Source: Clostridia bacterium (GTDB lineage: Bacteria; Bacillota; Clostridia; Oscillospirales; Acutalibacteraceae). Taken from it: DNA of 64,000 bases. Below the pieces are notes generated by a model. It saw nothing but the letters and a program-made list of their open reading frames with translations. It did no database searches and was not told the origin of the DNA. The DNA lies in NCBI GenBank assembly GCA_017507805.1, contig JAFWAC010000034.1:114735-178734 (forward strand). Reading direction: 5' to 3'. Position numbers and translations under genes: made by a program. This document shows, one piece after another, positions 11,902-28,976 of the stretch (its first letter is position 1; the number at the start of each line of letters is the position of its first letter).

Positions 11902-12937
11902 CCTTCACAATTATATAAATAAGCTTAATTATAAGCTGTTCAAGCACTATCCGCCCGTCTGCACCAAAGGATTTAAGGCTGTTATCAGCGGCGGTTAATG
12001 CCTCAAGGCTTAAAGATAGCCGTTTAAAATCAAACTTTTTAAGGCTTGTTGCCGCCTTTTCAAGCACAAATTCCCTACCCTTATATCCAAAAGCAGAGCT
12101 TACCTGAGAAACGGTGCCGCCATCACTTTTTGCGGTGTAAATACGGAACATATCAACATAAACCGAGGAAATGCTGTGCAGAATTATCATCGGCTCGATG
12201 CGCATAAAGAAAAGCTCGTCCAAGGCGGTGAGAGAAGCCGAAATGTCACACGCGATAATATGCTTTGAAAGATTGTAAACCGAAGCCTCCACCGTTTTAA
12301 TGCAAACTCTATCCACCGTTTCGCGTGTGATGGGGGTGCTACCCGAAAAGGCGCAAAGCTTGTCAAGCTCATTTCGCAGGATATTTATATCCTCGCCTGC
12401 CGTCTCAATAAGATATTTCGCGGTAGCAGAATCCATTTTACAGCCGCGTTTTGATGCGCCGTCTGTGAGCATTTTTATAAGCTCAGGCATCTTGCGGTGG
12501 TCAAGCTTTACTGCCATTCCCCCCGCCTTTTCGGCTGAGGCAACAATTCTCTTGAACTTTGAGCTTTTTTTACTGTCAAACTCTAAATTATCAAATCTCA
12601 GAATTATAACCGCACTGTCCGAAGCCTCGCTTAAAAGACTGCAAAGTCTGTCAAGGTCTGTTTTGGAGCAATGCTCAAAGTCATAATCATCAAGTAAAAT
12701 ACACTTTTTATCTGCCATAAATGGAAGCTGCATTGCGGCATCGTAAACCTCCTGCAAATCACAGGAAGCGCCGAATTTGCAATAGTTGAATACATCATCA
12801 GGCTCGGTGATTTTTTTCGTAATTTTATCCGAATAGGTCTTTTTGAGATAGCCGTCCTCACCGAAAAGTATATAAACGGGCAACAGCTCCCCCGAAGCGA
12901 TATTCTTTTTAAGTGCTTCCTCAAAAGCTATTGCCAT
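11879..12937 (-). CDS. holA: DNA polymerase III delta subunit
   Basis: Clamp-loader delta subunit that opens the beta clamp. The 352-residue product shows the family N-terminus (PVYILFGEDGYLKK near residue 20), the PFMADKKCILLDD segment, and AGEDINILRNELDKL near residue 190, all typical of HolA. ATG at 12937 has GAAGGGTG upstream. Only 17 bases separate it from the stop of the upstream RyR-domain gene, so this essential gene may receive transcription from the accessory operon. No own promoter is obvious in the short gap. Confidence 0.92.
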   Translation of the reverse strand: MAIAFEEALKKNIASGELLPVYILFGEDGYLKKTYSDKITKKITEPDDVFNYCKFGASCDLQEVYDAAMQLPFMADKKCILLDDYDFEHCSKTDLDRLCSLLSEASDSAVIILRFDNLEFDSKKSSKFKRIVASAEKAGGMAVKLDHRKMPELIKMLTDGASKRGCKMDSATAKYLIETAGEDINILRNELDKLCAFSGSTPITRETVDRVCIKTVEASVYNLSKHIIACDISASLTALDELFFMRIEPMIILHSISSVYVDMFRIYTAKSDGGTVSQVSSAFGYKGREFVLEKAATSLKKFDFKRLSLSLEALTAADNSLKSFGADGRIVLEQLIIKLIYIIVKGESVDKA

Positions 12938-12954
12938 TTACATACACACCCTTC

Positions 12955-14784
12955 TTAATAATCATCCTTTTCCTGCTCGGACAGCGGCAATGCATCAAAC
13001 GGGATAAGCAGATGATGGTTCTTTGCCAAATCGTTGCGCTTGGGCGCATAACAATATCCCTCCGAACGCATATAGGCATTCCAGCGGCAATGCTCTAACT
13101 TTCTTAATGCCCATTTTTCCTCGTCAGTTCTTTGTGAGACAGGCTTCTCGATGCCCGCCATTTTACACTTCTTTTTCATTTTCTTATGGATAACCGAAGC
13201 CACTGAGGATTTATAATTGTAATCATATTGCCAGAATTGTGCCTCGGTTCCGCCGTAATCATCCCTGTGACGGCTGAGTGCCGCCATTTCAACCTCACCG
13301 TCTATGATAACCGACTCTGAATAGGCAGTATCCCTGTCGCCTATAAACTCAATATCATAGCTCTTGCTTTTAAAGTTTGTTATCCCCTTTAAGGCATTGC
13401 TCTTATCTGTATCATAAACTATCGCCTGAATTTTGGGATTTATTCCCGAGCGTTCAAACAACATTCTCAGCTTCATTGCAACCGAAATGTTAAGCTCATC
13501 ATTACCCAATGCAACAAGCACATAGGTAACCTGCGGCATTGCACAAATCATATCATCAAAGGTTTTGGTAGTAACATCCACCCCTGAGAAAATTGATATT
13601 TCATACTTTGCCTCACCGTCAACGGTCGAATTAGAGTTAAATCTCTCGTCCATAAGCTCGGGACAAAGCGACCTGAATTTAAGCTCGGCATCGGGGTCGG
13701 CATCAAATGCGCTTATTCTCACGCGGTATCCGTCCATCTGGCAAAACCAAGCAAGGGTTTTGGTCATTTCAGCTCCGTGCTTACCCATTCCCACAACCAA
13801 AGCCGAAATATCCTTTGCCCCTGTTTCGGGGTTTTCGACAGCGCTTTCAAAAATATTTTCAAAGCCCGAATCGTACAAGGTTCTGCTTATAAGTGACTGA
13901 ACCTCATTCACACGGCGCACCTTTATTTTTATTTCATCGCCGCCGTCAGCGAATGCTCTCGACAAAAGCGGCTCCGCCTCTGCCTGGGTGGAGAAAACAT
14001 AAAGCTTGGTATTATCGCGGTTTTTATAGCGCGTCACCAATTTGAGCCCTTGATTAATATTTTCGGAATGGTCCTCACCGATAGTGAAAAAATGAAGCCA
14101 TCCACCCTTGCTGTGAACCGTGAAATTAACCGTTACAATATCCTTTTTAAAGCAAATCGCACCCAGCTCGCGAGCCTTTTCGATAAGCTCAAAGCTACGC
14201 TCCTCCTCCTTTTCAAAAACATCGGTAAAAACAGCAAAGCGATTTTTAATCGGCTCTCCGTTTTCGTTTGTCCTTCCGTTGGCGCTTAAAATGCTTTTTG
14301 CCAACGAGAGGGATTTTTCACTAAGCTCTGAAAAAATGTAGATATCTGAACGGTAGTTTACGGCAAACCTTATGTAAGCCAAGACATTTTTGAAAAAGGA
14401 CAAAACAAATCCGAAGGTAAGCAACGGCGCAACAACAAACAGCACCGAAAACAGTATCGAATAGCCGTATTCAAGCCAACCTATGGACTCTGCAAGGTTT
14501 TGAGTTACAAAGGTAAAATCCCCATCAACAACAAAAAGGCGAATCATATTGTGAATTGAAATCAAAAAGGTCTCAAAGGGACTGCAATTATATGCAGCAA
14601 ATGCCTCGCCGTAAATTGGGATAAAGAGCAAAAATGAGGAAACTATTACTCCCCCAAATAAAATGCGGATTGGAGTTAAAATTCTGCCGCTTTTATATTT
14701 TGCCCTGAATCTGAAAATTGCAAACAACACTGATGCCGCAAAAACAGCTAATGAAATAATGAAAAAAGAAAGCCATTTTCCCAT
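12955..14784 (-). CDS. Channel-like two-Rossmann (TrkA-N-like) protein with C-terminal RyR domain
   Basis: A 609-residue protein. Residues 1-150 hold about three to four hydrophobic segments, including one at 2-24 and one near 110-130, with a pore-like stretch between. Two Rossmann-like segments follow: IYIFSELSEKSLSLAKSI and, near residue 330, ALVVGMGKHGAEMTKTLAWF with a GxGxxG fingerprint. This order resembles ion-channel regulators of the TrkA-N/CASTOR type. The last 65 residues (EKWALRKLEHCRWNAYMRSE, then HLLIPFDALPLSEQEKDDY) match the RyR domain, a suspected ligand sensor. ATG at 14784 was chosen for GGGAGGT upstream. It is the last gene of the tubulin/vWA operon, after an internal hairpin. 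Inference: a ligand-gated ion-flux effector. Confidence 0.75.
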   Translation of the reverse strand: MGKWLSFFIISLAVFAASVLFAIFRFRAKYKSGRILTPIRILFGGVIVSSFLLFIPIYGEAFAAYNCSPFETFLISIHNMIRLFVVDGDFTFVTQNLAESIGWLEYGYSILFSVLFVVAPLLTFGFVLSFFKNVLAYIRFAVNYRSDIYIFSELSEKSLSLAKSILSANGRTNENGEPIKNRFAVFTDVFEKEEERSFELIEKARELGAICFKKDIVTVNFTVHSKGGWLHFFTIGEDHSENINQGLKLVTRYKNRDNTKLYVFSTQAEAEPLLSRAFADGGDEIKIKVRRVNEVQSLISRTLYDSGFENIFESAVENPETGAKDISALVVGMGKHGAEMTKTLAWFCQMDGYRVRISAFDADPDAELKFRSLCPELMDERFNSNSTVDGEAKYEISIFSGVDVTTKTFDDMICAMPQVTYVLVALGNDELNISVAMKLRMLFERSGINPKIQAIVYDTDKSNALKGITNFKSKSYDIEFIGDRDTAYSESVIIDGEVEMAALSRHRDDYGGTEAQFWQYDYNYKSSVASVIHKKMKKKCKMAGIEKPVSQRTDEEKWALRKLEHCRWNAYMRSEGYCYAPKRNDLAKNHHLLIPFDALPLSEQEKDDY

Positions 14785-14814
14785 TAGTTTTACCTCCCGA
14801 AAGAAATTAAATAG

Positions 14815-14842
14815 GTAAAACACGGCTTTCGCCGTGTTTTAC
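14815..14842 (-). terminator. Intra-operon hairpin (attenuating terminator)
   Basis: A perfect 12-bp stem (14815-14826 and 14831-14842, GTAAAACACGGC) with a 4-base loop separates the small zinc protein gene from the RyR-domain gene. The stem end supplies a short T run on the minus strand. It may lower expression of the last gene relative to the rest of the operon. Confidence 0.75.
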
Positions 14843-14847
14843 TGAAA

Positions 14848-15099
14848 TCAGAACAAATCTCTTTTAAATTCCTCGACATCGCCGCCGACAGCAAGTGACA
14901 AGGCGTGCTGTTTTTCTGCACAATCCTTACAGATAATCTGTTCCTCATCATTAAGCAGATCGGAAACAATGTTGGGCTTGTAGCCGGCACCCACAAAAAA
15001 GTCGCCGCAATCGTCACATTTGTGGGCAAGCTTGGGAACAAAAACAACACCTGCTACCACTATTACAAGAATAACCGCAAACAAAAGTATTTTTTTCAT
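14848..15099 (-). CDS. Small membrane-anchored CxxC...CxxC zinc protein
   Basis: An 83-residue protein: MKK, then a hydrophobic helix at about 4-25, then HKCDDCGDFF and, 32 residues on, ICKDCAEK. The paired CxxC motifs suggest a small zinc ribbon on the outer face or just beyond the membrane anchor. The pattern resembles the CDFCG...CMAC cluster inside the giant protein encoded immediately upstream. ATG at 15099 has AAAGGGGAAAG upstream; a longer start would overlap the previous gene. It is not a recognised family. Its place in the operon suggests a partner or substrate of the giant peptidase, which is inference. Confidence 0.7.
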   Translation of the reverse strand: MKKILLFAVILVIVVAGVVFVPKLAHKCDDCGDFFVGAGYKPNIVSDLLNDEEQIICKDCAEKQHALSLAVGGDVEEFKRDLF

Positions 15100-15115
15100 T
15101 TCTCTTTCCCCTTTT

Positions 15116-18100
15116 TCAAAGCTTTGTAAGGTGCAATGCAATGGTCAGCTTTTCATTGCTTGAGGAATACATATATGCGTTACCTACCCTGTGATTTGAT
15201 TTTAAATTAGAAAATTGAATTATCTCCCTGAATTTTGCATTGTCTATAAGTGCAGTCTTAGCCTCTGAAAATACCTTTTCGTCTGCGAATTTGAAGGAAA
15301 CATCAAATCTTTCAAAATCAACACTCCGGCAAACAACCGACCTTATTTTGTTGAAATCATATTTCTCAAAGAAAAGACCGTGTCTGCGGTGATAGTTACA
15401 CTTAGTAGCGGTACAAACAGGAAGCGGGAACTCGCTTACAGGGGTGTGCGCATCAAGTCTGGAAAGCTCCGCTGTGGTGATGCAGAAGCAATCATAGCTT
15501 ATAGCCTCACTCTGGGCTTTTTCCTTTTTGGTGTCTGTTCCGTCACCCCAAGTAGTATCAAGGTGGTAATAATCGCCCTCAAGCTTAACCATATTCCAAG
15601 CGTGGGTATCGCTTGTGACATAGGTACATTCAATTCCGCACAGATTAAGCAAATACTGTGTTGCCTTTGCGTAGCCTGCGCAGACAGCCTTTTTGTTCAC
15701 AAACACACCGTAGATAGAGCGCAGGTCATCGGGTATATCGGAGGAGATGTTACCGTTCTGGCGCTCAAGACCTACCGTATCATAATCCACAAGGCGGATT
15801 ATATTTTCGTAGATATGAAGTGTTGCCTCATAGTCGCTCATAGACGAGGTAATGCCACTCATAAATGCCTTAACGGCAGTATCAAGCTTTTTCTGCCTTT
15901 TTTCAGCCTCAGCACGCGGCATACAATACTCAAATTCCACACGATTAACAATATGGGTTACTGTGTCAAAATAATATGTGGCGCCGTGCTGGAACCAGAA
16001 AATTTCGGGATGGTCGCGCTGAACAAAATCAATAATTTTATTAACCTGCGTATCAGTGATAGTAATATCGGTCACTGCAAGCTCAGGCACAAAGTCATTT
16101 ACCGCCTGCAAAGCAGCATCATAAAACCGTTTTTCCTCCCCCGAAAGCAAGCCGTAGGCATACATATTAACCTTACCGGGAGTGCGGTTGACAGGACCCT
16201 TTATCGGCTCGGCAGGTGTTGCGCCGCCGTTGCCTGAATTATTGTCGCCATCCTCAGGAGTAAGCGCATTAGGGTCTTTAGGCATTATCACCGTAAAGGC
16301 GCCGCAATATTCAGGCTTAAGGGGTGTTTCCCTGTCAAGGAAAGGTGTGGGCTTTGTAATAACAGTACCCAATGAGAAAGGATAATTTGCCCTGTATCTC
16401 AGGAAGCCTCTGCCATACTCATCATCGCGGTAGGCGGTGATGATTTCCTCCCGTTTAGCGGTGGCAGGCTCATTAATCAGGTAGGCATACTGAATTTCTA
16501 CCCATTTTGCCATTCCCTCATAGATTTCAAGGCGCATTTTTCTGCCGTACTTCCTGCGGATTGCACGGTCGTCCCAATTAATATATTGCCAGATATGTGT
16601 AAGCTCGTGCGCCATTGTGAGCATGGATGCCATTCTCGGTGAGCCGTTCTCAACCAAAAGGGTGTAGCCATTTTTGTCACTTATAGCAACACCAAGCACA
16701 CGCCCATCGCTTTTCGGTGTGGGAACAAAAGCCTGCCCCAAACGCTTGTGGAGTGTTTTGGAGTTTACCATCTGAACCTTTATTCCAACATTAATTCTTA
16801 TACCGAAAAATGCCTCCATATTTCGTTTGACATCCTCGAAAATCTTGCGGAATTCTTCCCCTGTTTTTATGGCGGTGCGACTGCATGCCATACAGCGGTC
16901 GCGTCCGTCCGCCAGGGTTTCATACTCTACCCCGTAAATCTCACAGCCGCAGAAATCGCAGTAGCGCGAATCGGGCTTTCCGGGCTTGAAGGTAGCCTCA
17001 ACCATCTCGGCAACATTTTTGTTTTCTCTTGCCTGCTTCAGAGCATTTCTGTCCATTCCCATTGCCGACAAATACTCCAGCGTGCCGCGCAAATCCAATT
17101 GTGTTGGCTCCTCGTCAGCGCCGAAAAGGGTATAATATCTTTCGTGGTAAGGCTTGCGCTCAACCGAAAAGCCCGCCTTTGTGTCGGCAGTGTTTTCAGC
17201 AGGTGAAACAATTTCATTCCTAAAAGGCATTTCAGTAACCTCCGCCGCTTCCTTAGCAACACCCTCTGCATCGGTTTCTTCAGGCTCAGGATCTGTGGGT
17301 GCTTCTGCTTGAGGTTCGGCTTCCTCTGCCGTTTTTGCAGGTTCTTCAGCTTCAGCCTCCGGCTGTTCCTCGGTAGCTTCGGGTTCTTCAGGCTTCTCGG
17401 GATTTTTGCGTTTTTTACGCTTTAACCAGCCAAAAATGCCCTTTGGCTCCTTTTCATCCTCGGCAGGAGCTTCCTTTTCCTGCTCGGTGTCTTCTGTCGG
17501 AGTGGTTTCCTCCTCAGGTTGCTCACCCTCGGTCTCGGGGGTGGTATTTTCCTCCTCAGGCTTTTCAGGCTCCTGCGGCGGAAGCTCACCATCGACAGGC
17601 TCGTCACCCTCTGTAGGAGTTTCCTCCTTTGGCTTTTTCTTAAACCAGCCCTTTATTTTTTCAAATATTTTCTTAATTCCTCTACCTATTTTTGAGAAAA
17701 TTCCCTTTTTCTTTGAATTTTCTTCCTCCTCGGTATCGGTGAAAATTATCGGGGGAATGGGCTCGGACGGCGGATTAAGGCTGTTTTCAAGTGTGATACT
17801 GTGCCAATTAAGATAATCGTGAATGATTTTGAAAATTCTCTCAAGATTTCTTTCAACCGCCACAGTAAGACCTAAATCAAGCTGGCTGTCCTCAATAATA
17901 TAAATCGAATTGGTGCCGTTACTGCAACCCTCACCTTTAATCGAGTAGGTAAGAGGATTTACACCCTCAGGCAAATCAATATCCTCCGTAACAGCGCATA
18001 TAAACGCCTGATTTTCGGCAAAAAGTGTTCTGAAAATTTCATTGAACAAAAGTGTAACGGTATAACGGATATTATCGTTAAGCTTACCGTCAAGCTCAGG

Positions 18101-20872
18101 CAAATCAATACGCAAAATTTCCTTGTTGCGGTAGGTGCGGCAGGGAATGCCGCTATCAGAAGAAAAGGAAACCTTTTTAGCGGTTGCAAAATCGCTGTAC
18201 CTTTCCATTCGGTAATATCCCGGTGTTTCAACCGTTATGTCCGCAAACTGCTTCACAACCTTAAGTCCTGCAACATCCTGCTGCGCACCGATTTTATCGG
18301 AATCGCGAACACTGTGAACGGTATACACACGTTCCTGTCTGTAAGCAGGGCGGTTGTTTATGTGGTCTGCTGCTCTGCGCACCAAAATCTGACCGTCTGC
18401 CGTGAGGTACTGCATTTCGTAATACTTACCGCCGAGTGTGAAAAACTGACCGGGCAGGTACTTTTGATATATATGACCGCTAAGCTCGGCACCCAGGTAA
18501 TACCTTTCGCCCTTTTCGTCCTCTGCAACATAGCCTGCGGACTTAAGCTTGCTAACATAGGCCGCCTTGAAATCCTTATTATCGATAAAATAGACTATTT
18601 CTATTTTACCCTTTTTCATATTAAAGCTTTCAGCAACCTTTATTACATCAGAACCAAATTCCTCATTTTCAAGTCTGATTGTCTTAAATGACGCGGCGTC
18701 CACCCTTTCGGTGTAGCTGCCCTGCAGCTCGGAAATTTCCTGCAGTGAAGCATAACAATTATAAATCTCAAACCAAAGCTGCTTTTTCAAATCAAAGATG
18801 CGGACACCCAAAAGCGAAAGCTCTTTCTCCAGCGTTTCGGCTGAAACCCTGACCGTACTCATCATAAGCATAAGTCTGAGTGCAGTATTGCGGTGACTGC
18901 GGGTGTAATCGGCAACGATATAAGGAATAGCCTTAGCATCGGTCTCAAAGATGGAGGCATTTTCTGCCATATAATCCTTAAGCAGATAATCCTGCGAAAT
19001 AACATTTATAAAGCCCTGCTCGGTTGTTCTGGTGGAAAAATCCCTTAAAACCTCGAACATATTAAAGGCTTCGTCCTCAACCGTGATATAGCTGTTTTTC
19101 TCTGCCGAAGCGCTCCAAAGATTCGGTGAGGTTTCAAAATGCTCATCCATAGCCTCCTGACTTGTCGGGAGACCTGCATATCGCGTTAAATCGTAGTAAT
19201 ACTGTCTGCCAATCCAGCGGATATCGGTAACAGGGAATGCCTCACCGCCGTACCAGCGGGTTTTGGAAACCTGATTTTTAAGTGCGGCAAAGGAAAGCTC
19301 AGTTCCAACACCCAAGTATCTTGAAATGTTTGGAATAAGTCTGTGGTGCAGGTATTCATCATCGGTTTCCCAGCACATATAGGAGGATGTGCCCAAATGC
19401 TTGTTTGTTGCCGAAACCTCGGTAATACCTGTCATAAGGATATGTGACATTGCGTCTACCAGACCGTCACAGTTTTTATCGCACAGGCAGTAGGTGATTT
19501 CGTTGTCAGCCTCTGCCTTGCACTGCTTAACAATAAGGTTAAGACCTATCTGTGCCGTGGAAATGAGCTTTGAAGGCTCAATAACAATCACAAAGCCGAC
19601 CTTTTCCAAAAATTCGCAATTTTTGTGGTGAAGCTCAATATCAAGCACCGCTGAACGGGTGATTATACCTATATCAAGCTCCTCGGGCTGTTCGCCAAGC
19701 ACACCTATTTTCCACATAAAGGGAATATTTGTGACCGACTGCACACCCTTTTCTATCCAAGCGGTGATATCCTCCTCAACGGAGTGTCTGCCAAGCACAA
19801 CCAACACCTTTTTATGGGCAAGCAATGCCCTGTTCATGGGATAGAAGGCATAAGGAATAAGGTCATTATAGAAGGGATTATTAAAGAGAATGCTCTTTCC
19901 GTTAAGCAAATCAAGGGAGGAATAGAGATAGTTATGGTCTATCGAAAAGCCTGTTTTATTTAATGCCTTAAAATAGGTTGCAAAGCTTACGGTTTTCGGG
20001 TCCTCGCTCTTTTCAAGCTCGCGGATGATTTCATCGGTGGTGACATCATAAGCCAAGGCATTATTAACGCTTGTGTTTTCGGTGAGAAGCTTATCACCGA
20101 AAATTGAGCGCAAAAACTTTCTTAAAAGTGAGTAGTTCACCGTTTTGTAGGCATCCTCATCCTCACCTAAAATATCTCCTGTGTACTCACCCTTGGTGGC
20201 ACCGTCAAGATAAAAGAAAAGCTCACCGACTACGATTATACCGAAAACAGGATAAAAGAGAGATTTCAGCAAACCCTCATAGTAAAATTTGCGGCTTACC
20301 AACATCAAAAGCGCCGAAATAATCAGTGCGCTGTAATAGAAAACCTTTAACAGACCTCTTGTCTGGGCATAATTTTCCTTTAAGCACCACATACCCTTTT
20401 CGGGGAAATATTCATAAAAGGCGCCGGCAATTTTGGTGTAAACCGTGCTGTCTGTCCTGACAGCCTTGCGCATAATTCCCAAGGCAATATCCTTAACAAC
20501 CAGATAGGCTGTAATTATAGCCGTGTTTGCAATAAAGAATATCCAGAAATTAAGATTAATGCTTTTTATAAACCTGTTTATAAAGCTTGCAATCATTATA
20601 ATAATATCGGATATTTTTTCGGGCATCCAAGAAAATGCCGCCAAGCTATTAAGCCAGACAGGAATATTGTTTATCAGCTTAATAAGCCAATCGCAAATGT
20701 TATCAGCCAAAATCATTGCCGCAATAACATAAATGAGAGCTACAACCGGCATCCAGAGCTGACGGCTTCTTTCGCTTTTGGGGAGGTTTACCTTTTGCCC
20801 CAAAATACAAAGAGCAATAAAAGGAAGAATGGCGGCAACCATTTTCACTATATTCAAAACGGTATTAATCAT
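15116..20872 (-). CDS. Giant membrane protein with zinc cluster, HExxH peptidase (DA1-like) and transglutaminase-like domains
   Basis: 1918 residues. Residues 1-230 contain about six TM helices. Residues 350-490 read like a worn superfamily-2 helicase core (LDIGIITRSAVLD, VGFVIVIEPSKLI, VSATNKH) without a P-loop. A Pro/Glu/Lys-rich linker spans about 1045-1217. Next come a LIM-like zinc cluster (Cys1305, 1308, 1327, 1330), a metallopeptidase motif HELTH with His1422, Glu1423, His1426 and likely third ligand Glu1452, and a transglutaminase-like triad Cys1731 (AVCAGYA), His1757 (THAWN), Asp1772 (LDTTWGD). The zinc cluster plus peptidase resembles DA1 proteins. ATG at 20872 overlaps the upstream stop by eight bases with GGGAGGAA upstream. 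Function unknown; a protein-processing or crosslinking effector at the membrane is inferred. Confidence 0.8.
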   Translation of the reverse strand: MINTVLNIVKMVAAILPFIALCILGQKVNLPKSERSRQLWMPVVALIYVIAAMILADNICDWLIKLINNIPVWLNSLAAFSWMPEKISDIIIMIASFINRFIKSINLNFWIFFIANTAIITAYLVVKDIALGIMRKAVRTDSTVYTKIAGAFYEYFPEKGMWCLKENYAQTRGLLKVFYYSALIISALLMLVSRKFYYEGLLKSLFYPVFGIIVVGELFFYLDGATKGEYTGDILGEDEDAYKTVNYSLLRKFLRSIFGDKLLTENTSVNNALAYDVTTDEIIRELEKSEDPKTVSFATYFKALNKTGFSIDHNYLYSSLDLLNGKSILFNNPFYNDLIPYAFYPMNRALLAHKKVLVVLGRHSVEEDITAWIEKGVQSVTNIPFMWKIGVLGEQPEELDIGIITRSAVLDIELHHKNCEFLEKVGFVIVIEPSKLISTAQIGLNLIVKQCKAEADNEITYCLCDKNCDGLVDAMSHILMTGITEVSATNKHLGTSSYMCWETDDEYLHHRLIPNISRYLGVGTELSFAALKNQVSKTRWYGGEAFPVTDIRWIGRQYYYDLTRYAGLPTSQEAMDEHFETSPNLWSASAEKNSYITVEDEAFNMFEVLRDFSTRTTEQGFINVISQDYLLKDYMAENASIFETDAKAIPYIVADYTRSHRNTALRLMLMMSTVRVSAETLEKELSLLGVRIFDLKKQLWFEIYNCYASLQEISELQGSYTERVDAASFKTIRLENEEFGSDVIKVAESFNMKKGKIEIVYFIDNKDFKAAYVSKLKSAGYVAEDEKGERYYLGAELSGHIYQKYLPGQFFTLGGKYYEMQYLTADGQILVRRAADHINNRPAYRQERVYTVHSVRDSDKIGAQQDVAGLKVVKQFADITVETPGYYRMERYSDFATAKKVSFSSDSGIPCRTYRNKEILRIDLPELDGKLNDNIRYTVTLLFNEIFRTLFAENQAFICAVTEDIDLPEGVNPLTYSIKGEGCSNGTNSIYIIEDSQLDLGLTVAVERNLERIFKIIHDYLNWHSITLENSLNPPSEPIPPIIFTDTEEEENSKKKGIFSKIGRGIKKIFEKIKGWFKKKPKEETPTEGDEPVDGELPPQEPEKPEEENTTPETEGEQPEEETTPTEDTEQEKEAPAEDEKEPKGIFGWLKRKKRKNPEKPEEPEATEEQPEAEAEEPAKTAEEAEPQAEAPTDPEPEETDAEGVAKEAAEVTEMPFRNEIVSPAENTADTKAGFSVERKPYHERYYTLFGADEEPTQLDLRGTLEYLSAMGMDRNALKQARENKNVAEMVEATFKPGKPDSRYCDFCGCEIYGVEYETLADGRDRCMACSRTAIKTGEEFRKIFEDVKRNMEAFFGIRINVGIKVQMVNSKTLHKRLGQAFVPTPKSDGRVLGVAISDKNGYTLLVENGSPRMASMLTMAHELTHIWQYINWDDRAIRRKYGRKMRLEIYEGMAKWVEIQYAYLINEPATAKREEIITAYRDDEYGRGFLRYRANYPFSLGTVITKPTPFLDRETPLKPEYCGAFTVIMPKDPNALTPEDGDNNSGNGGATPAEPIKGPVNRTPGKVNMYAYGLLSGEEKRFYDAALQAVNDFVPELAVTDITITDTQVNKIIDFVQRDHPEIFWFQHGATYYFDTVTHIVNRVEFEYCMPRAEAEKRQKKLDTAVKAFMSGITSSMSDYEATLHIYENIIRLVDYDTVGLERQNGNISSDIPDDLRSIYGVFVNKKAVCAGYAKATQYLLNLCGIECTYVTSDTHAWNMVKLEGDYYHLDTTWGDGTDTKKEKAQSEAISYDCFCITTAELSRLDAHTPVSEFPLPVCTATKCNYHRRHGLFFEKYDFNKIRSVVCRSVDFERFDVSFKFADEKVFSEAKTALIDNAKFREIIQFSNLKSNHRVGNAYMYSSSNEKLTIALHLTKL

Positions 20873-22958
20873 ACATTTCCTCCCTCTGCACCTTTATAGC
20901 CTTAATATAATCCACAGGAAGCTCCACCATATTTCCGGGCTGCATAAACTCGATTTTCCGTTCGTTTTCCTCATAATGAACATCGTAGCTGTACGGCTCA
21001 GGTCTGGTGAAATCGTAATTAAACGGCTCAACCTCTCTGCCAACAAGGAGACTATAATCAATATTGCCTGCGAAAGCCTCGCTCACCTCACGCAATCTTT
21101 CCTCAACACAGTTGTAATGGAAGCGCAGGACAGCATACTGCCGCGAGCTTTCAGACTCGGTAATTCCAAGCACCGAAAACTCCCGCATAACATTGCAGGC
21201 GTGGCTTAAATACTTTGAAAAGCGTTCAAGTCCTAACTTTATTTTAAAGCAAATCTCGCCCATAACGGCGTTAAACTGCTTTATCAGCTTAACAAGTCTT
21301 TGCCTCATAACCACAATATAGGCAAAGCCCGAAGCCAAAAACAAGCCGAAAACAACCGCAACCGTAACAAGTGAAAAGGTAAAGGAGCCTGCGGTGTTAA
21401 AGCTACTGAAAAGCAGGGGCAAAAAGCCGATGAAATATGCCGCCAAGGCAATAAGCGCGGTTATAACCGTCTTTTTCTTGGTCATTCTTTCGGAAATATT
21501 TTTGCGTATTTTTTTGTCACTGCAGTCCAGCTCCTCGCGGTATTTCGCAGTATCAAAGAGATGGGTTGTAACGGTTGAAACCATATTGGCTTCTTCCTCC
21601 GCAAGGCGATAGAAAACATCCTCGCGTTGGTTTTCGTTAAGTCTTAATGCAAGGTCATCCTGAACAAAATTTTTACTGCGAAAATCCTCACGCACCGCCT
21701 GCTTTACGGCACGGCGAGGCTCGCGGAGGTAACGGACAAAGCTTTTACCTATCGAATGGTACTGCTCATCCCAATAATTGTACTCATTATCGGGGCAATC
21801 GGTCGAAAGCCCGATTTTGTCATACTCACCATAAAGCTCACCCTCGCGGATTTCAGGATTCATTTTCACAAGGACGCGCTCGTTGGAAATAAAGCGTCTC
21901 CTTACCTCCTCCTCCGAGATAGGCTCAGCCATGCTTGCCTTTTCAAAAGCAAGACGGTTTGCCAAAATCCGTCTTGTAAGCTCAAGGCGCATTGCAAACT
22001 CGGTAAAGGTAGCCTTGGTTTTCATCCTGTCGGTAACGGTTTCGGCACGATAGAGCTTATAGGGTTGGAGCACACCGCTTGGAACCTCATTTTGACCAAG
22101 CACTGCCAAGAAGGAAAGGAACTGAATGTAAGAGCCGCTTTTTCGAATGTGATTTTGATACTCCACCTCGCAAATAACAAAACGCATCTGGGAAGGATAG
22201 AGATTGTCATCACAGAAATTCACATACTCCAAATCCTCATGCTTTTTCCATGCAGAATTAAATATTTCATCCTCGCAGGCATTCGTTCTCTCCGAAACCG
22301 CAATCACACTTGCGGGAACATTTTCAAGCATGGCACCGTTTAAAAAGCTTTTTGAAAGTATCTCATACCTGTCGGCAAGGGCGCGGTACTGCTCAACCTC
22401 AGCCGCTGTGAGATTCATTTCATCAAGGAGCCTAAAATATTCAACATCTATCGGAGTATCGCCCAAAAGCTTTTCATTCCACCAATCAGGACAGCTCGGC
22501 TTTTTTTGCATAGGCGAGCCCAAAAGCCAGATTGCAAGTCTTGTGAGGGGGCTTTGCGAGGCTTTTATATAATTTTCATGCTTCAAAGCTCTGAAGTGCA
22601 GGATTTTTTCGGCACATTCTTTTACTGCCGTCTCACAGCCTTCAGGGCTTTCAAGCTCACTGTCAGAGATATAAAAATCGGGTATATTTTCGGTGGTATC
22701 AACAAAATCAAAGGGATTTCTCCTGTCAATACATTCCCGTCCGAAGGTTTCACCGTCCTGCACGATAATAGCGCGCCACTGCGCCTCGTGAGCTACTGCC
22801 GCCTTAAGCTCAGGCACAGCCTGCTCCAGGGTTTCGCCTTCGGGATTCCAGACACAAAAGGTGTAACCGCCCTTATTTAAAAGCGCCCTTAATGCATAGG
22901 AATATTTTTCCTTGATGTTATCTATCAAGGCTTCACCGCAAACAATAACCGTAAACAA
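20865..22958 (-). CDS. Two-TM protein of unknown family, tubulin/vWA operon component
   Basis: A 697-residue protein that I do not recognise. The N-terminus (FTVIVCGEALIDNIKEKY, then RAIIVQDGETFG near residue 80) alternates strands and helices and could be an alpha/beta domain. A long charged helical middle follows. Two TM helices lie near residues 495-515 and 527-549, and a helical segment and Pro/Tyr-rich C-terminus follow. TTG at 22958 is chosen because AGGCGGTGAT precedes it by a good distance and the domain begins there; the farther TTG at 23000 lacks an RBS. It lies between the tubulin-like and giant-protein genes and overlaps the latter, so it is probably a stoichiometric partner. Confidence 0.75.
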   Translation of the reverse strand: MFTVIVCGEALIDNIKEKYSYALRALLNKGGYTFCVWNPEGETLEQAVPELKAAVAHEAQWRAIIVQDGETFGRECIDRRNPFDFVDTTENIPDFYISDSELESPEGCETAVKECAEKILHFRALKHENYIKASQSPLTRLAIWLLGSPMQKKPSCPDWWNEKLLGDTPIDVEYFRLLDEMNLTAAEVEQYRALADRYEILSKSFLNGAMLENVPASVIAVSERTNACEDEIFNSAWKKHEDLEYVNFCDDNLYPSQMRFVICEVEYQNHIRKSGSYIQFLSFLAVLGQNEVPSGVLQPYKLYRAETVTDRMKTKATFTEFAMRLELTRRILANRLAFEKASMAEPISEEEVRRRFISNERVLVKMNPEIREGELYGEYDKIGLSTDCPDNEYNYWDEQYHSIGKSFVRYLREPRRAVKQAVREDFRSKNFVQDDLALRLNENQREDVFYRLAEEEANMVSTVTTHLFDTAKYREELDCSDKKIRKNISERMTKKKTVITALIALAAYFIGFLPLLFSSFNTAGSFTFSLVTVAVVFGLFLASGFAYIVVMRQRLVKLIKQFNAVMGEICFKIKLGLERFSKYLSHACNVMREFSVLGITESESSRQYAVLRFHYNCVEERLREVSEAFAGNIDYSLLVGREVEPFNYDFTRPEPYSYDVHYEENERKIEFMQPGNMVELPVDYIKAIKVQREEMYD

Positions 22959-23026
22959 ATAATCACCGCCTGTGGTCTGAGGGACGATACAGTCCCCCAA
23001 ACCGAAATATTAAAATGCCGATTAAA

Positions 23027-26000
23027 TTATAAGCTGAATTCCGCTGTTTCGGATACATCGAGGTCAACGATTTTTTCGTAGATTTTCTTTTCAATCGTCT
23101 GAATAACATCGTTGGACTTAACATCAATATGATTGTCGCCCATAAATACCTTCGGGAATGCCTCATAATTTGCCACAAGAAGCTTATAATGCTTTACAAG
23201 AAGCTTTGCGAAAATGGGATTTACATCGTCCGTATCGGCAAAGGTCGCAATTTCTCCCTGCAAAATATCAAAGATTGCCTCAACCATAACCTCTAATTCA
23301 GCGGCATCCTTCTTAGGCAGAGAATTCCAATAAAGCAAGGGAAGCTCGAATATGGATGTAGCCTCCTTCTTGGTCTTTGCGATTTCAAGGCGATCCTTTT
23401 CGTCAATAAACTCGCAACGGTCAAGCGAATCCAGACTCCTTGCAAAGGTGGTCTTTTCATAGAGTGTGCTGTTTGCAAACTCCTTCTCTCTTATAGCAGT
23501 TGCCTCGGTATCAATAGACCTTACGGCATAACGGTCAAAATAAAGGGCATCAAGCACCTCAAAGAGGCGGTCACACTTGGTGTGATTTGAAACGATAAGC
23601 TTTTTAAAGCCGTTTCTGCCGTCCTTATATCTGTATACAAACTTCTCGGCATCATGAATGGAGCTTAAATGCTTGTTGATAAACTTGTAGATAAAGCCGT
23701 AAATCATAGCCTGATGTATGCTCTTCATAAGGCAACGCTGATAGCCTCTGGGATCAATCTCAGGAAGCACGGAAATAGAGTTCCAGCGCTTGTCAATATG
23801 AGGTGTGATAACGGGATTAAGGCGGTTATCGGGGCCAATCTTGGTCATATACTCCTGATAAGCGGTAAAGTATTCACCAACACCCTCACTGCTTGCAGGG
23901 GCATCTATGCAATGCTCAAGCTCCTCAACGGGCATATCGGGTGAGCACATTTTCTGAAGCTGTGTAGGCATAATATCATAGATTGAACGGAAGAAGTGCA
24001 GCTCGTACTTTGAAACGGTGTCCGAAGCGTTTTTAGCGTCAAATCGTCTGGGCATCTTAACACCCTCGCCCTCCTCGAGGTACTTATTGTAGGCAATAGC
24101 ATCTACCTCGCGGCTCTCGTCAAAGTCCTTGCGGGTGATGCAGGGGCTTGAAAGATGTCTACCCTTGTTAATTATGGTTTCAACATAGGCATTAATCTCT
24201 GAATAAGAGTTTCCGCGCGCCTTAAGCTCCTCTTTTTCAAGCTCGTTTGTGGTTTCGTCTGCAGCGCACAGGCATCTCATCTTATGCTCAAGTGCGATTG
24301 CGCGCAAAATGTCAACATCGATAATCTGGTCGCACTTATCCGAAACAATTTCCTTGTAAAGCTCAATGATAACGGTGTCAAACACATCCTGAACGGTATC
24401 GTCCGAAAGGACATCATACTTAAGCTTTTCTCCAACCTTGGCATTACTCTTAACCGCATCATAAATACCGCTGTTAAGCTTAAAGTCATTCTGACCGCCG
24501 TTAGCCGGCAAAGCCTGAATAGAAACCAATTTCTTGAGCAGGGTTGGATTGCCGAAAAGGTTAAGCACGCAGTCGCCGTTATTAAATTCAATGCTTGAAA
24601 GAATTGTTTTCTTTTTCTTTTCAATACCCACGATTTTCTTTTCAAATGAATCGTAGAAATTCTCAAAAGCTTCTATAAGTCTGTCAATATATGTTCTTGC
24701 CTCCAAGCATACATAGTACCTAAAGAATTTGTCATACCAGCTTGAAAGGTTTCCGGCATAAGCAGTTAAAAGCTGAGCGCACTTAAGCTTTGCGCCCTCA
24801 ACAGGCAAATTAGCCTCATCACAGGAAACGCACATTGACTGCAAGCCTGTTTCCTTGCCGCCGCCAAAGACCTGAAAAACAGAAACATCTCTTACCTTTG
24901 AATTTTCATCGTTATCGCCCTTGCCTGTTTTACGCCAAGCGCCGAATTTGTTTATCTCAATCTCGGAAGCGAAATCAGCATCCATGGGTGCGGTTTCGGT
25001 CTCGGAAGCAAGCTGGTCTCTGAGCTTGTAAAGCAGGTAACGCATTGCGTTGGGGTGCATTGCATTACCGTCTATTGAAAGGAAGGACTCAAGCATAAAG
25101 GGCTCGGCATTCTTGCTCATCTTTTCCTTGCCGTCAAACACGCTTTCAATGAAGGGCTTAACAATGTTTCTGATTGCAGGAATGTTTATAATATCCTCGT
25201 ATGCAGAGATGGTTGCAAATCTGTCCTTAAGGCTGACGCCCTCGGGGGTTACATCCTTGCACTTTGTAAAGTTCTTAACTGTTTTGGTGTAATTTGCGTT
25301 GGAAACATAGAGATTGGAAGCTCTGTTTACAAGCTCGGAAATATAATTTTCCACTGCGGGCAATGCCTTTGATGTGGAATTCTTTTGCAGGAATTTTCTG
25401 TTCTTGGGGATGATGTAATCCTCGTTCATCATCTTTGAAAATTCGTCAGTTCCGGTTTCAAGCTTAGAGGTATAAATCCTGCCGCGGTTAGGCTCACGCT
25501 TGCCGGCGGTGCTTGCCTGGTCAAATTCCTTTTTCTTGTCCCAATACTCGCTGTCATAAACAAGCCAGGAGTTTTCAATCATTTCCCTGCGTGCCTTTTC
25601 ATCGGCAGCATCTCCCGAATGACCGATAATACGCTTCTCAACCCATTCAAGAGCTATGTAATCGCGGATTGCCTCATAGGGATAGCGTACAACAGAAGCG
25701 CCAGCGCCGCCGAAACGGCTTCTGCCAAGCTTGCGGTCGTCCAAGAACTCCTTAAGAACATTGTCCTCCTTACTTGAGGCGCTTCTGTTCATCGGGCCGA
25801 TACACTGCTCATAGATAGAATGTGCAACATAATCCTCGTACTGAGCAACCTTTTCCATATTAAATTCGTCCGAATCGGTTCTGTCAAACAGGAAGCAGAA
25901 ATCATAAGGCAGGCAGGAAAGCTTTTCGTTGGCACCTGCTGTGGTGGGAACGGTTATGTGCATATTTTTGTAGCGTCTGAGCTCCGGCACAGCCTCAAAG

Positions 26001-26683
26001 AAGGGACGCATCATAAATGCATTTATTTCCTTAATGGTAGCATAGCCGTTGCGCTGCATACTCTTTCTCTCGCTGTAGGAGGGCTTGTTGCAGTCCATAA
26101 CGCCGGGCATAATGAAGAAGCCGCGTATAATAGCGGAGGATTCGGGGTAGTTCTTTGTGATATAGTTTCTTATAAGCATTGCAACTATCATAGCAATACC
26201 CGAACCTGTACCACCGGCAACGGTTGAAGCCACAACAACCTTAACGGTCTGCTTTTTGTCAGAGCCGTCCTTGAGATAAAGCGCATCAATAGCATCGTAA
26301 AGGGCGCTTATTCTGCCCTGACGGATTGTGGCATTGAGTGCCAGACGGGAAATTGCACGAATCTGTCCCGCACCCTCGGAAACGGTCTTGCCGTTTATAA
26401 TCATATTGTTGGGGAACCACTCTGTGCGTGCCTCATCATCCTGAATAAGATAATCCCTGATTGTTCTGGGAGAGGAGGTCTGAATAGCAGTAATATTAAT
26501 ATTATCGTCTGCCGCCTGAAGGTCGTTTACATCGGTATCAAGAATAACAAAACGGCTTTTGGAAAGATCGTCCTTCTTTGCCAGCTCTGATACCTTTCTG
26601 ATGGTTCTTGAACCGATACCGCCAACACCCACAAAAAGTGTTGCCGGAACCTTATTTCCCTTTACTGTTTCTTTTGCTTTCAT
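23027..26683 (-). CDS. Tubulin/FtsZ-like protein (Tubulin_2 type), very large
   Basis: About 1218 residues. The N-terminal domain carries a glycine-rich first loop, LFVGVGGIGSR at 16-26, an acidic turn VILDTDVND, and the tubulin signature VAGGTGSGIA at 155-164, which binds the nucleotide phosphates. These mark the FtsZ/tubulin superfamily, here the large Tubulin_2-like branch. The remaining 800 residues are mainly helical and unrecognised. ATG at 26683 has GGTGA eight bases upstream; ATG at 26707, overlapping the vWA stop (TAATG), is the alternative. No TM helices are seen, so it is cytosolic. Family knowledge: related proteins occur beside vWA genes and are proposed to remodel membranes. GTP-driven polymerisation is inferred. 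Confidence 0.85.
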   Translation of the reverse strand: MKAKETVKGNKVPATLFVGVGGIGSRTIRKVSELAKKDDLSKSRFVILDTDVNDLQAADDNINITAIQTSSPRTIRDYLIQDDEARTEWFPNNMIINGKTVSEGAGQIRAISRLALNATIRQGRISALYDAIDALYLKDGSDKKQTVKVVVASTVAGGTGSGIAMIVAMLIRNYITKNYPESSAIIRGFFIMPGVMDCNKPSYSERKSMQRNGYATIKEINAFMMRPFFEAVPELRRYKNMHITVPTTAGANEKLSCLPYDFCFLFDRTDSDEFNMEKVAQYEDYVAHSIYEQCIGPMNRSASSKEDNVLKEFLDDRKLGRSRFGGAGASVVRYPYEAIRDYIALEWVEKRIIGHSGDAADEKARREMIENSWLVYDSEYWDKKKEFDQASTAGKREPNRGRIYTSKLETGTDEFSKMMNEDYIIPKNRKFLQKNSTSKALPAVENYISELVNRASNLYVSNANYTKTVKNFTKCKDVTPEGVSLKDRFATISAYEDIINIPAIRNIVKPFIESVFDGKEKMSKNAEPFMLESFLSIDGNAMHPNAMRYLLYKLRDQLASETETAPMDADFASEIEINKFGAWRKTGKGDNDENSKVRDVSVFQVFGGGKETGLQSMCVSCDEANLPVEGAKLKCAQLLTAYAGNLSSWYDKFFRYYVCLEARTYIDRLIEAFENFYDSFEKKIVGIEKKKKTILSSIEFNNGDCVLNLFGNPTLLKKLVSIQALPANGGQNDFKLNSGIYDAVKSNAKVGEKLKYDVLSDDTVQDVFDTVIIELYKEIVSDKCDQIIDVDILRAIALEHKMRCLCAADETTNELEKEELKARGNSYSEINAYVETIINKGRHLSSPCITRKDFDESREVDAIAYNKYLEEGEGVKMPRRFDAKNASDTVSKYELHFFRSIYDIMPTQLQKMCSPDMPVEELEHCIDAPASSEGVGEYFTAYQEYMTKIGPDNRLNPVITPHIDKRWNSISVLPEIDPRGYQRCLMKSIHQAMIYGFIYKFINKHLSSIHDAEKFVYRYKDGRNGFKKLIVSNHTKCDRLFEVLDALYFDRYAVRSIDTEATAIREKEFANSTLYEKTTFARSLDSLDRCEFIDEKDRLEIAKTKKEATSIFELPLLYWNSLPKKDAAELEVMVEAIFDILQGEIATFADTDDVNPIFAKLLVKHYKLLVANYEAFPKVFMGDNHIDVKSNDVIQTIEKKIYEKIVDLDVSETAEFSL

Positions 26684-26706
26684 AATAAAATCACCGTTAC
26701 CTTTCA

Positions 26707-28854
26707 TTACATTTGATTTATATAAATTGTGCCGTTATACAATTGGTTTATCTGGTCACCCGTCATGGGGTCTGTTGAGGATTCATACCACGAAATCGGG
26801 CAACCGCTGTAAAACTCTATTGAGCTTTCGGGTGTGTGTGTTGCCGCATTCAAAAGCTCGCCGTCATCACTCATTTCGTATCCGATACCGCCAACACGCA
26901 GGCCTGAAATATTGGTAATTGAAACATCTGCGAGGGCAAAGGACGCCGCCGAGGATTTCCTTTTTATCCACGCATTGTTAGAACGCCTCACAACCTTTGC
27001 TTTTCCCGAAACCGCAGGAGCGCCAAGCTCGTCAACACAGTTTATGGTCACCTGCTTGCGTATCTTTGTGCTGGTGGGAAGCTCGCCCTCATAGTAAACG
27101 AAAAGCTTTTTCGGAAGCACAGGGCGGAAAAGCAACCACAGAATTAAGGCTATAACCGCAAGGATTATAAGCACTATAAGCAAAAACAGCCAATTTCGCT
27201 CAAGCCAGCTTCTGTTATCCTTTAAATTGAAATCAATTTCACTGCTGCCTGCCCAGCTTTCCTTGTCATAGACGCCCTCGTAGGATACCGTCATTTTGCA
27301 GGTTTCGTATGTACCGGGAGTGGGCTTTCCGTCCTTTAGGGTAGGTGTTATCTCAACAAATCCTGTCTCGTCACACTTTTTAATCTTGAACTCCCCGAAT
27401 TTGGAGGTGATATTTCGCGGAAGCTCCACCTTTGGCAGCTTAAAGGCTTCCCACTGCTCCTTGGTGAATTCCTGCCCCTCTATCTTAGCCTTAAGCTTTA
27501 TGGCAGGGGTTTTCTTAAAGCCGTCCGTATCGACAGTGTAGGTCGGATTTTCTATCGCCTCAAAGGTGATTGCCTTATTGGCATAAACATCGTATTTAAG
27601 CTCTGCCGAAACCGAGTTATAGTCAAGATACCTTGCCACAACATCTATCTCAACCATACCTTCTTCAAGCTTTACGGTATCGCCCGATTTGTACTTTTTG
27701 GGGTCGGTAACACCGTTGTTCTTAATTGTGGCTTCATATTCCACATCACCGAGAAGCTCCGAGCTTGCAAGCTTTTTATCGGTACCTGCCTCCACAAAGC
27801 AAAATTCCAGCTTGTACTCCCCTGCCTGCAGGTCGCTTGCCTTTGTAACCTCATTACCCTCATTATCGGTAAGGAATGCCTTTATTTCAACATTTGGCTT
27901 GTAATAAATCTCAATGGTTGTGGCATTTTCAACCTCGGCTATATATTCACCTGCGGCAAACTTTTCCGAAAAGGTAAGTATACTGCCCTGCAAGGAAGTG
28001 TTAATCTTTCCGGCGCCTTTTTTAGCGCCTCTGTACGGTATTTCGGAATATCTTACCGAAACCGGACTTTCCGAGGAGGTGATAAGCTTATCCGCAGAAT
28101 TTTTAATACCGTTAATGCTCACATTTTCGCCCTGTGCAAAAATTATAAGCTCACTCATAGGTATATCAAAGGAGAATTTTTTGGTGGATATATCAATCTC
28201 AAGCTTGTGGGTGTTGAAAACGCGGGTGCAGATATCGGTTATTTTTTTAAGTATATCATTATTGCCCGATGCCCGTTCAAAGTAAATGTTCTTACCCTTG
28301 TTTTCGGTTATACCCGGTGTGGTTGCACCGATGCTTAAAAACATTACCTTTACATCGTCATCCTTCTTGGCAAAATACTCATCAGGATAGGAAACCGCAA
28401 CATCAAAAGCACCGTCCGTTAAAACGACAAGCCATTTTTCGGCGTTTTTGTTTTTAACCAAATCGGTGTAAGCCTTTTTAACCGAGGCAAAAGGAGTGCC
28501 TCCTCCCGGGGTAATCATACTATGAACGCTTGCAACATTTTTAGCTGTGCCTGCGCTTCCTTCAAGACTAAGATAGGGACCCTTTTTACCGTAATCACTC
28601 ATAACATAGATGTTCATAACATCCTGCTTGGTGAGCATTGCGGCAAAAACCTCCATCGCATATTTTGCCTGACACCATGTGTCATTATTAGCGCCGAACA
28701 TACTTCCCGAGTCATCATAAACCACATTGATAACCCTTTTTTGAGATGTGCCGGCAGCGCTTGCAGGCATTGCTGCTGTGAAGCAGCAGGCAATAAAAAT
28801 GCAGACCAAAAGCAAAGCCGATACTCTTTTAATAATATTGGATATTTTCTCCAT
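26707..28854 (-). CDS. Membrane-anchored extracytoplasmic vWA-domain protein
   Basis: 715 residues, first gene of the accessory operon. It has a signal peptide (residues 1-33, ending ASA-AG). A von Willebrand A domain follows with the MIDAS motif DDSGSM (Asp47, Ser49, Ser51), a TPFASV threonine loop near 120 and VVLTDGAFD near 145. A long beta-rich stalk of Ig-like segments comes next. One TM helix sits at about 553-576, followed by a C-terminal domain of about 135 residues that should be cytosolic. ATG at 28854 has GAGGAGGT upstream. The stop overlaps an ATG of the tubulin-like gene. Topology suggests it links an external metal-dependent binding event to the cytosolic tubulin-like partner, which is inference. 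Confidence 0.87.
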   Translation of the reverse strand: MEKISNIIKRVSALLLVCIFIACCFTAAMPASAAGTSQKRVINVVYDDSGSMFGANNDTWCQAKYAMEVFAAMLTKQDVMNIYVMSDYGKKGPYLSLEGSAGTAKNVASVHSMITPGGGTPFASVKKAYTDLVKNKNAEKWLVVLTDGAFDVAVSYPDEYFAKKDDDVKVMFLSIGATTPGITENKGKNIYFERASGNNDILKKITDICTRVFNTHKLEIDISTKKFSFDIPMSELIIFAQGENVSINGIKNSADKLITSSESPVSVRYSEIPYRGAKKGAGKINTSLQGSILTFSEKFAAGEYIAEVENATTIEIYYKPNVEIKAFLTDNEGNEVTKASDLQAGEYKLEFCFVEAGTDKKLASSELLGDVEYEATIKNNGVTDPKKYKSGDTVKLEEGMVEIDVVARYLDYNSVSAELKYDVYANKAITFEAIENPTYTVDTDGFKKTPAIKLKAKIEGQEFTKEQWEAFKLPKVELPRNITSKFGEFKIKKCDETGFVEITPTLKDGKPTPGTYETCKMTVSYEGVYDKESWAGSSEIDFNLKDNRSWLERNWLFLLIVLIILAVIALILWLLFRPVLPKKLFVYYEGELPTSTKIRKQVTINCVDELGAPAVSGKAKVVRRSNNAWIKRKSSAASFALADVSITNISGLRVGGIGYEMSDDGELLNAATHTPESSIEFYSGCPISWYESSTDPMTGDQINQLYNGTIYINQM

Positions 28855-28947: not shown

Positions 28948-28976
28948 ATTATACTATTTATTTGCGTTTTTGTCAA
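28948..28976 (-). promoter_or_regulatory. Consensus sigma-A promoter of the vWA/tubulin operon
   Basis: On the minus strand TTGACA (28971-28976), exactly 17 bases, and TATAAT (28948-28953) give a perfect match to the housekeeping consensus. Transcription would start near 28941, leaving about 86 bases of 5' UTR before ATG 28854. No other strong promoter is seen in the following 14 kb of that strand, so the operon is probably a single long transcript with high basal expression. Confidence 0.85.

Follow-up and report, generated by a model that had tools for sequence, protein, structure and literature searches.

A tubulin-vWA operon with a giant membrane protein and a RyR-domain channel-like protein in Clostridia: a candidate surveillance system

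Known tubulin-vWA systems and the operon of the window

Prokaryotic systems combining a tubulin-like protein with a vWA protein were predicted in 2010 (Makarova and Koonin, PMC2875224). Tubulin-vWA systems with GAP1-N2 and DO-GTPase proteins were proposed as nucleoside triphosphate-dependent conflict systems (Kaur et al. 2020, PMC7159879). These and the other papers below are cited from excerpts. Here, we analyzed a six-gene operon of this class located in a 64,000-nucleotide stretch of a gut Clostridia bacterium genome (contig JAFWAC010000034.1, positions 114,735 to 178,734; hereafter, the window). The operon encodes a vWA receptor, a Tubulin_2 (FtsZl1) protein, a protein with two transmembrane (TM) segments, a giant membrane protein, a small Zn-ribbon-like membrane protein, and a channel-like protein with a C-terminal RyR (R12) domain (Table 1). 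We put at roughly even the chance that these genes form a membrane-anchored surveillance system directed at conflict or stress.

The tubulin branch and the MIDAS-intact vWA partner (MIDAS, metal ion-dependent adhesion site) are the same as in the FtsZl1 systems (PMC2875224), in which the other partners are mostly lineage-specific and many have TM segments, again as in the operon. Membership in this class had already been proposed in a reading of the window made by a model without database searches (hereafter, the sequence-only reading), and the Tubulin_2 profile and the MIDAS-bearing partner agree with it. Unlike the FtsZl1 systems, the six proteins show no protein kinase, P-loop GTPase, or OmpA match; in turn, neither a giant protease/transglutaminase hub nor a RyR channel is named among the FtsZl1 partners in the excerpts of PMC2875224. 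The systems centered on GAP1-N2 and DO-GTPase (PMC7159879, in excerpt) also contain a tubulin and a membrane vWA protein, but the operon has no GTPase or GAP1 match, only one tubulin, and a different membrane hub. Thus, the class is known, both as FtsZl1-vWA and as GTPase-centered tubulin-vWA systems, and the hub and the effectors are particular to the variant of the window. Among the matches listed in the open-licence literature, no paper was found on this operon type, on a membrane-anchored MrfA-like protein, or on a RyR-domain channel acting as an effector in bacteria, and none stood out as a functional study of tubulin-vWA systems.

A probable GAP1/DO-GTPase tubulin-vWA system was found in the bacterial family of the window itself. 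One locus (L028) encodes two tubulins, a vWA protein, a DO-GTPase2 protein scoring above the cut-off, and a GAP1-M match of 21.8 bits (cut-off 24); another (L029) encodes a tubulin and a vWA protein.

Core proteins, receptor exchange, and distribution

The tubulin-like protein is a clear Tubulin_2 member by its profile matches (Table 1), and the GxGGxG and GGTGSG residues are invariant in all 13 tubulin-like proteins. A structural model of residues 1-572 has a mean predicted local distance difference test (pLDDT) score of 44.9, with values of about 70 confined to portions of the first 200 residues; it is unreliable beyond approximately residue 200 and was used for fold search alone. With this low-confidence model, the top eight Foldseek matches were all FtsZ, TubZ, CetZ, or tubulin structures (best E 1.2e-3, none below 1e-3). 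A PDB sequence search with the full tubulin alignment gave no meaningful match (best E 0.15). The GTPase half of the tubulin fold is supported by profile and model, as expected from the tubulin/FtsZ-like assignment of the sequence-only reading.

The vWA protein of the window scores 14.9 bits with the Pfam vWA profile, under the cut-off of 23.8. Its MIDAS is complete (D-x-S-x-S, T, D) and invariant in 12 of 12 aligned vWA proteins, each of which has one strong TM segment followed by a tail of 108-152 amino acids (aa). By these features, the protein is a single-pass receptor with an outside ectodomain and a cytoplasmic tail. Of the earlier description as a secreted vWA protein, the signal peptide and the MIDAS-bearing domain stand and free secretion does not, given the TM segment and the tail; the role of an external sensor, also suggested there, fits all of these features.

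The ectodomain of the window is 56% identical to that of L024 in the vWA part and 49% in the rest, compared with 22-35% for the other ten receptors. By the other core genes, L024 is the most distant locus compared (29% for the tubulin, 20% for the two-TM protein, and 32% for the N-terminal part of the giant), and the tubulin of the window is 59% identical to that of L002. The tail of the window receptor matches those of L002 (z 20), L003 (z 12), and, weakly, L006 (z 4.3), and gives no match with L024 (z 0.8). In trees of 13 rows, the ectodomain joins the window with L024 (100/100), and the tubulin joins the window with L002-L006 (100/100). The approximately unbiased (AU) test rejects placing the ectodomain with the tubulin clade (p 2.5e-47) and, less strongly, placing the tubulin with L024 (p 0.0016; L024 sits on a long branch); the two tested groups were chosen after the identities had been seen. 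By these comparisons, the ectodomain of the window has been swapped with a distant version, and the tail groups with the tails of the tubulin's relatives. We read this as an outside sensor that may be replaced while the tail stays fitted to an inside partner. The N-terminal part of the giant has its nearest relative in L022 (68%) and, in its tree, falls outside L002-L006; the two-TM tree does not settle the position of the window. Since the ectodomain and the giant differ in history, the operon is a mosaic and the ectodomain swap is not its sole exchange.

Neighborhoods were read with BLAST and home-made hidden Markov models (HMMs). The core order of vWA, tubulin, two-TM protein, and N-terminal part of the giant is kept in 13 loci (the window, L002, L003, L005, L006, L020, L021, L022, L023, L024, L042, L044, and L060), so the families co-occur elsewhere, a check proposed in the sequence-only reading. 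L003 and L005 end within the giant, and contig ends truncate L004 and L048. The more distant L063, as well as L046 with its upstream piece L067, contain a vWA gene, a tubulin gene, a gene for approximately 700 aa without a match to the two-TM profile, and the N-terminal part of the giant; in L046/L067, the tubulin gene comes after the vWA gene and a second stretch that is broken up. L025 and L026 have a vWA protein, a tubulin, and a giant with a transglutaminase domain.

All the following counts include the genome of the window where it belongs to the set. With the tubulin-like protein as a query, 5 loci were found in the genome collection of the species; in the family, 10 of 200 genomes had matches at E 0.001, some of them only distant Tubulin_2 genes. 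The giant profile had matches in 7 of 391 genomes of the class, and a more diverse profile of the giant core in 2 of 398 genomes of the phylum. Within the genus, the tubulin gene was found in 3 of 70 genomes; the other two tubulins are only about 31 and 29% identical to that of the window (BLAST) and were therefore hardly inherited together with it. The operon is an accessory, rare gene set, and the data suggest a mobile-looking one. An integrase gene lies 1.4 kb from the L063 operon and another about 13 kb from the operon of genome G234; a plasmid scan found one distant Azospirillum tubulin-like gene. The operon of the window adjoins holA, which was matched in 62 of the 70 genus genomes. In seven of seven fetched neighborhoods, a gene for a 491-521-aa protein, putatively comEC by gene order, lies just upstream of holA; in the window, this place is taken by the RyR gene. 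Neighbors of the operon at other loci include TIR genes (L044 and L025) and a DUF4062 gene (L026).

This distribution bears on the membrane-remodelling machine of Makarova and Koonin, in which the tubulin relative would polymerize at the membrane and shape the envelope, with the vWA protein and the giant serving as anchors and envelope-processing enzymes. The shared tubulin family and vWA partner agree with it, as do the TM segments predicted in five of the six products, the exception being the tubulin protein. However, a machine of this kind sits poorly with patchiness even inside one genus and with ectodomain swapping, and the RyR, TIR, and toxin-like neighbors at some loci are more in keeping with conflict than with a basic role in shape. 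Moreover, GTP-dependent filaments were predicted for the family, but the polymer elements T6-H7 could not be confidently identified in it (PMC2875224, in excerpt). We consider remodelling rather unlikely. The sequence-only reading had named remodelling, surveillance, and defence together; surveillance or conflict is now favored over general envelope remodelling by rarity, mosaic make-up including the swap, some of the neighbors (TIR, DUF4062, papain-fold toxin, and WXG-like), and the link of the RyR protein to ADP-ribose signaling.

Two of these neighbor types come from L024, from which a type VII-like secretion variant was raised. Here, the operon would build a machine that secretes or delivers WXG-like substrates: the stretch behind the L024 operon (12171-19999) encodes an FtsK/SpoIIIE ATPase (9e-22), a papain-fold toxin (2.3e-8), and small WXG100-like proteins (Pfam E 0.025, under the cut-off). 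Such genes were seen at this one locus only, and in the genome of the window, FtsK-type matches are limited to one 826-aa frame, which is on another contig. The proposal was dropped after this search and is very improbable.

The giant protein and the RyR-domain channel-like protein

Five hydrophobic segments were found in the giant of the window and four to six across the 12 aligned giants; these segments and the positive loops suggest that the protein is cytoplasmic after approximately residue 225. Four cysteines of a Zn cluster (CxxC...CxxC), the HExxH motif, and an EGMAxW motif are invariant in nine of nine aligned giants. From this invariance, the giant likely carries a working metalloprotease, with HExxH at residue 1422 of the window protein and a downstream Glu present. 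The HExxH motif is missing in the distant L025 and L026, and matches of the giant to named families (DUF6782, BSP, and DUF6055) are all under the cut-off. A transglutaminase triad (C1731/H1757/D1772) follows in the window protein, in which PF01841 scores 25.1 bits (cut-off 23). The NCBIfam model MAG6410 matches the window giant with E 2.7e-19, but with 69 bits against a cut-off of 450.

These two sites are combined in various ways. Both HExxH and the transglutaminase domain were found in the window, L002, L006, L022, and the fragment L047; HExxH without the transglutaminase domain was found in L021, L023, L024, L042, and L044. In L020 and L060, HExxH is on a separate gene, and L020 has a separate transglutaminase gene as well. 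The transglutaminase domain without HExxH is found in L025 and L026, and neither site in the giants of L046 and L063.

That the giant derives from a superfamily 2 (SF2) helicase with an MZB domain was an idea from sequence that preceded the fold search. The AlphaFold model of the giant core is poor (mean pLDDT 44.8) and was used for fold search alone. Among 350,542 PDB chains, Foldseek gave a single match below 1e-3, the helicase MrfA (6znp; E 5.7e-6, 828 columns), followed by SecA and DEAD-box domains with E above 0.05; nothing below 1e-3 was found in the viral structure library. Walker A was found in none of 16 giants, and DE[ACLV][DH] in one (L025). The control for Walker A was void, since the pattern was absent from 11 truncated MrfA-type proteins and from full-length ones too and is not a fair control. 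The MZB profile had no match in the giant, and a PDB sequence search returned no helicase match for it. The likeness to the MrfA/YprA DUF1998 helicases, kin of DISARM, ARMADA, and Druantia (PMC12458937, in excerpt), is limited to Foldseek; unlike them, the giant is membrane-anchored, lacks Walker A and an MZB Pfam match, and is negative in profile comparison. Thus, with a poor-model fold match alone, it was not filed as a helicase.

The small 83-aa protein has homologues in L002 and L022, and by eye in L047. The RyR domain of the last gene product scores 15.2 bits, under the Pfam cut-off of 27.4. A five-row alignment of channel proteins matched solved RyR domains, namely 6uhi (an RyR1 chimera; E 3.3e-12), 4n05 (8.6e-6), and 3nrt (1.6e-5). 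When an HMM was built from three channel tails, it detected the L044 RyR protein, itself a PF02026 match (5e-35), at 5.7e-4; the reverse search with a single sequence detected the window protein only at 0.011. Phage R12 proteins bind or cut 2'/3' cyclic ADP-ribose (cADPR), and their residues H75, W78, H100, and D117 contact the ligand (PMC13232231, a preprint, in excerpt). The same four contact residues with the same spacing are present in the R12 domain of the window. The corresponding pattern H-x2-W-x21-H-x16-D, whose fit was spotted by eye before the pattern search, occurs in 2 of 506 locus open reading frames (ORFs), namely those of the window protein and of the L044 RyR gene, with 0.03 expected per shuffled set. 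On these matches, the RyR (R12) domain of the last gene product is a true one, having the published contact residues and spacing. The RyDEP/R12 proteins of the preprint are phage counter-defence enzymes or sponges, whereas the R12 domain of the window ends a membrane channel-like host protein. RyR proteins after the giant were found in the window, L002 (cut by the locus end), L022, L023 (distant), L025, and L044 (the domain alone); L022 keeps the contact residues with a five-residue insert (by eye), and L023 and L025 are spaced otherwise.

As in the CASTOR/POLLUX Ca2+ channels (PMC6697748, in excerpt), the channel-like part has a non-TVGYG filter and putative RCK-like regions, with weak Pfam support below the cut-off: TrkA_N gives E 0.048 in the window protein and 7.2e-4 in the homologue of L175, both under the cut-off. 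CASTOR is Ca2+-activated, and an R12 domain is not mentioned for it in the excerpts of PMC6697748. The channel equivalent of L024, a protein with RCK-like regions encoded in the same 12171-19999 stretch, has DAG at the filter place, where CASTOR has ADS(A)GNHA (by eye).

Relatives of the window channel were found in 22 of 391 class genomes, its own included, and 15 regions were fetched. In two of these, L173 and L177, a confirmed TIR gene abuts or overlaps the channel gene. In L177 (7124-10610), a channel, a stand-alone RyR domain, and a TIR protein are encoded by three overlapping or abutting genes; in L173, the channel and TIR genes overlap by one base, and the TIR protein resembles Thoeris ThsB. 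The L177 gene set resembles a Thoeris-like pair whose effector would be of a new type. In L044, the giant is followed by the RyR gene and then by a TIR gene; the genome of this locus also has a channel homologue, encoded on the opposite strand some 4.4 kb upstream of the vWA gene. The channel neighbor in L172 was first assumed to be a TIR protein, but Pfam does not confirm it and it was not counted. L182 and L183 encode shorter RyR proteins, L184 is doubtful, and L185 gives no match. The window itself contains a TIR ORF of 818 aa at 43898-46351 (+), with the match at about 44390, and four further TIR matches are found in the genome.

Another branch of these channels could point to a routine role in gut Clostridia: the genes would form a module for ion or envelope homeostasis, in which the RyR channel would be a general metabolic sensor. 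In 6 of the 15 fetched regions, all from one family, the channel gene is found at a conserved position of the chromosome, with secD/secF-like genes (by eye) nearby, and the cut-short L174 has the first neighbor of these six (L174-L176 and L178-L181 being the whole set); this branch looks settled, chromosomal, and housekeeping-like. However, the channel of the window is tied to a rare tubulin core, and those of L173 and L177 abut TIR genes. We judge such a module improbable.

Proposed mechanism and operon layout

For a membrane-anchored surveillance system, the following mechanism is proposed. The exchangeable vWA ectodomain would sense a ligand or damage outside the cell, and its tail would relay the signal to the cytoplasmic Tubulin_2 GTPase, which may act as both switch and scaffold jointly with the two-TM protein as an adaptor. 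The giant would be the hub, possibly with a helicase-derived core lacking Walker A, and would hold in the cytoplasm a metalloprotease-like site and, optionally, a cysteine enzyme of transglutaminase fold, both active on assembly of the complex. The RyR/RCK channel-like protein would be an optional end effector, probably under the control of an ADP-ribose-type nucleotide, and its opening would lead to arrest or repair.

Several observations weigh against this proposal. No PADLOC match was found in the six operon proteins, and no relatives were confirmed when viral contigs were scanned with the alignments of the giant and of the two-TM protein. None of the five TIR matches in the genome lies within the operon, and the six channels on the secD/secF side have no TIR gene. 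The transglutaminases of L005 and L020, related to that of the giant, begin with a signal peptide or TM segment (by eye), so the cytoplasmic placing of this domain could be wrong. As for the core of the giant, the MrfA match has a TM-score of 0.22 and a root-mean-square deviation of 30.7, and hhalign comparisons with 11 truncated and then 10 full-length MrfA-type proteins were not significant; in local mode, the decoys (the tubulin and two-TM proteins) scored equal to or better than the MrfA-type proteins.

A bolder version, which we hold to be unlikely, is an immune or damage alarm: the exchangeable receptor and tubulin switch would control a membrane ex-helicase with protease and transglutaminase arms, the RyR-like channel would be gated by a TIR-made ADP-ribose nucleotide, and R12 would be a nucleotide gate common to bacterial and animal channels. 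If a TIR product did gate the channel through its RyR domain, bacterial immunity would connect with the long-standing question of how animal ryanodine receptors respond to cyclic ADP-ribose. A receptor with a swapped outside and a retained tail makes signaling testable using existing natural versions; the protease site, which is invariant, and the channel-like protein, whose predicted ADP-ribose pocket is intact, offer further handles.

All six genes are on the minus strand, from 28854 to 12955. The vWA gene starts at ATG 28854, preceded by GAGGAGG; gene starts were refined by means of homologues and ribosome sites. The vWA and tubulin genes overlap in a common TAATG, and the giant gene overlaps the two-TM gene. 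Most of what the sequence-only reading had listed was recovered (Table 1): the perfect promoter, six tightly spaced co-directional genes, a two-TM protein of no known family, a giant with a Zn cluster, HExxH, and a transglutaminase triad, a small membrane protein with zinc motifs, and a RyR domain in the last gene, the last by the five-row alignment. A hairpin splits the RyR gene from the first five, so that the RyR gene may be tuned separately; in L022, a differing hairpin is found at the equivalent spot before the RyR gene (by eye).

Table 1. Features of the operon in the window
Feature	Coordinates	Strand	Description
Promoter TTGACA-17-TATAAT	28948..28976	-	Sigma-70 consensus match 12/12
vWA receptor, 715 aa	26707..28854	-	Signal peptide, full MIDAS, TM 556-574, 141-aa predicted cytoplasmic tail
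Tubulin_2 / FtsZl1 protein, 1226 aa	23027..26707	-	PF13809 E 1e-50, PF00091 1.3e-6
Two-TM protein, ~697 aa	20865..22958	-	Two predicted TM segments; no known family; start from homologues beginning MFTV
Giant membrane protein (putative hub), 1918 aa	15116..20872	-	5 TM, helicase-like core (fold match only), polar linker, Zn cluster and HExxH, C-terminal transglutaminase domain
Small membrane Zn-ribbon-like protein, 83 aa	14848..15099	-	One TM; CxxC pairs by eye
Intercistronic hairpin, 12 pairs	14815..14842	-	Between the small gene and the RyR gene; without a strong T-run
RyR-domain channel-like protein, 609 aa	12955..14784	-	TMs, two Rossmann/RCK-like regions, C-terminal R12 domain (H565, W568, H590, D607)

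Directly upstream of the promoter lies a YspA/SLOG-like gene (29008-29496, minus strand; PF06908 just under the cut-off). SLOG proteins bind ADP-ribose-related nucleotides. This gene was rejected as an operon member, because it precedes the promoter and has no homologue in the compared loci. In L025, a sigma-factor-like gene and a gene for a small CxxC anti-sigma-like protein (by eye) are found upstream of the operon (17437-18547, minus strand). A small gene of L002 located before the RyR gene (22518-22772) resembles this small CxxC gene.

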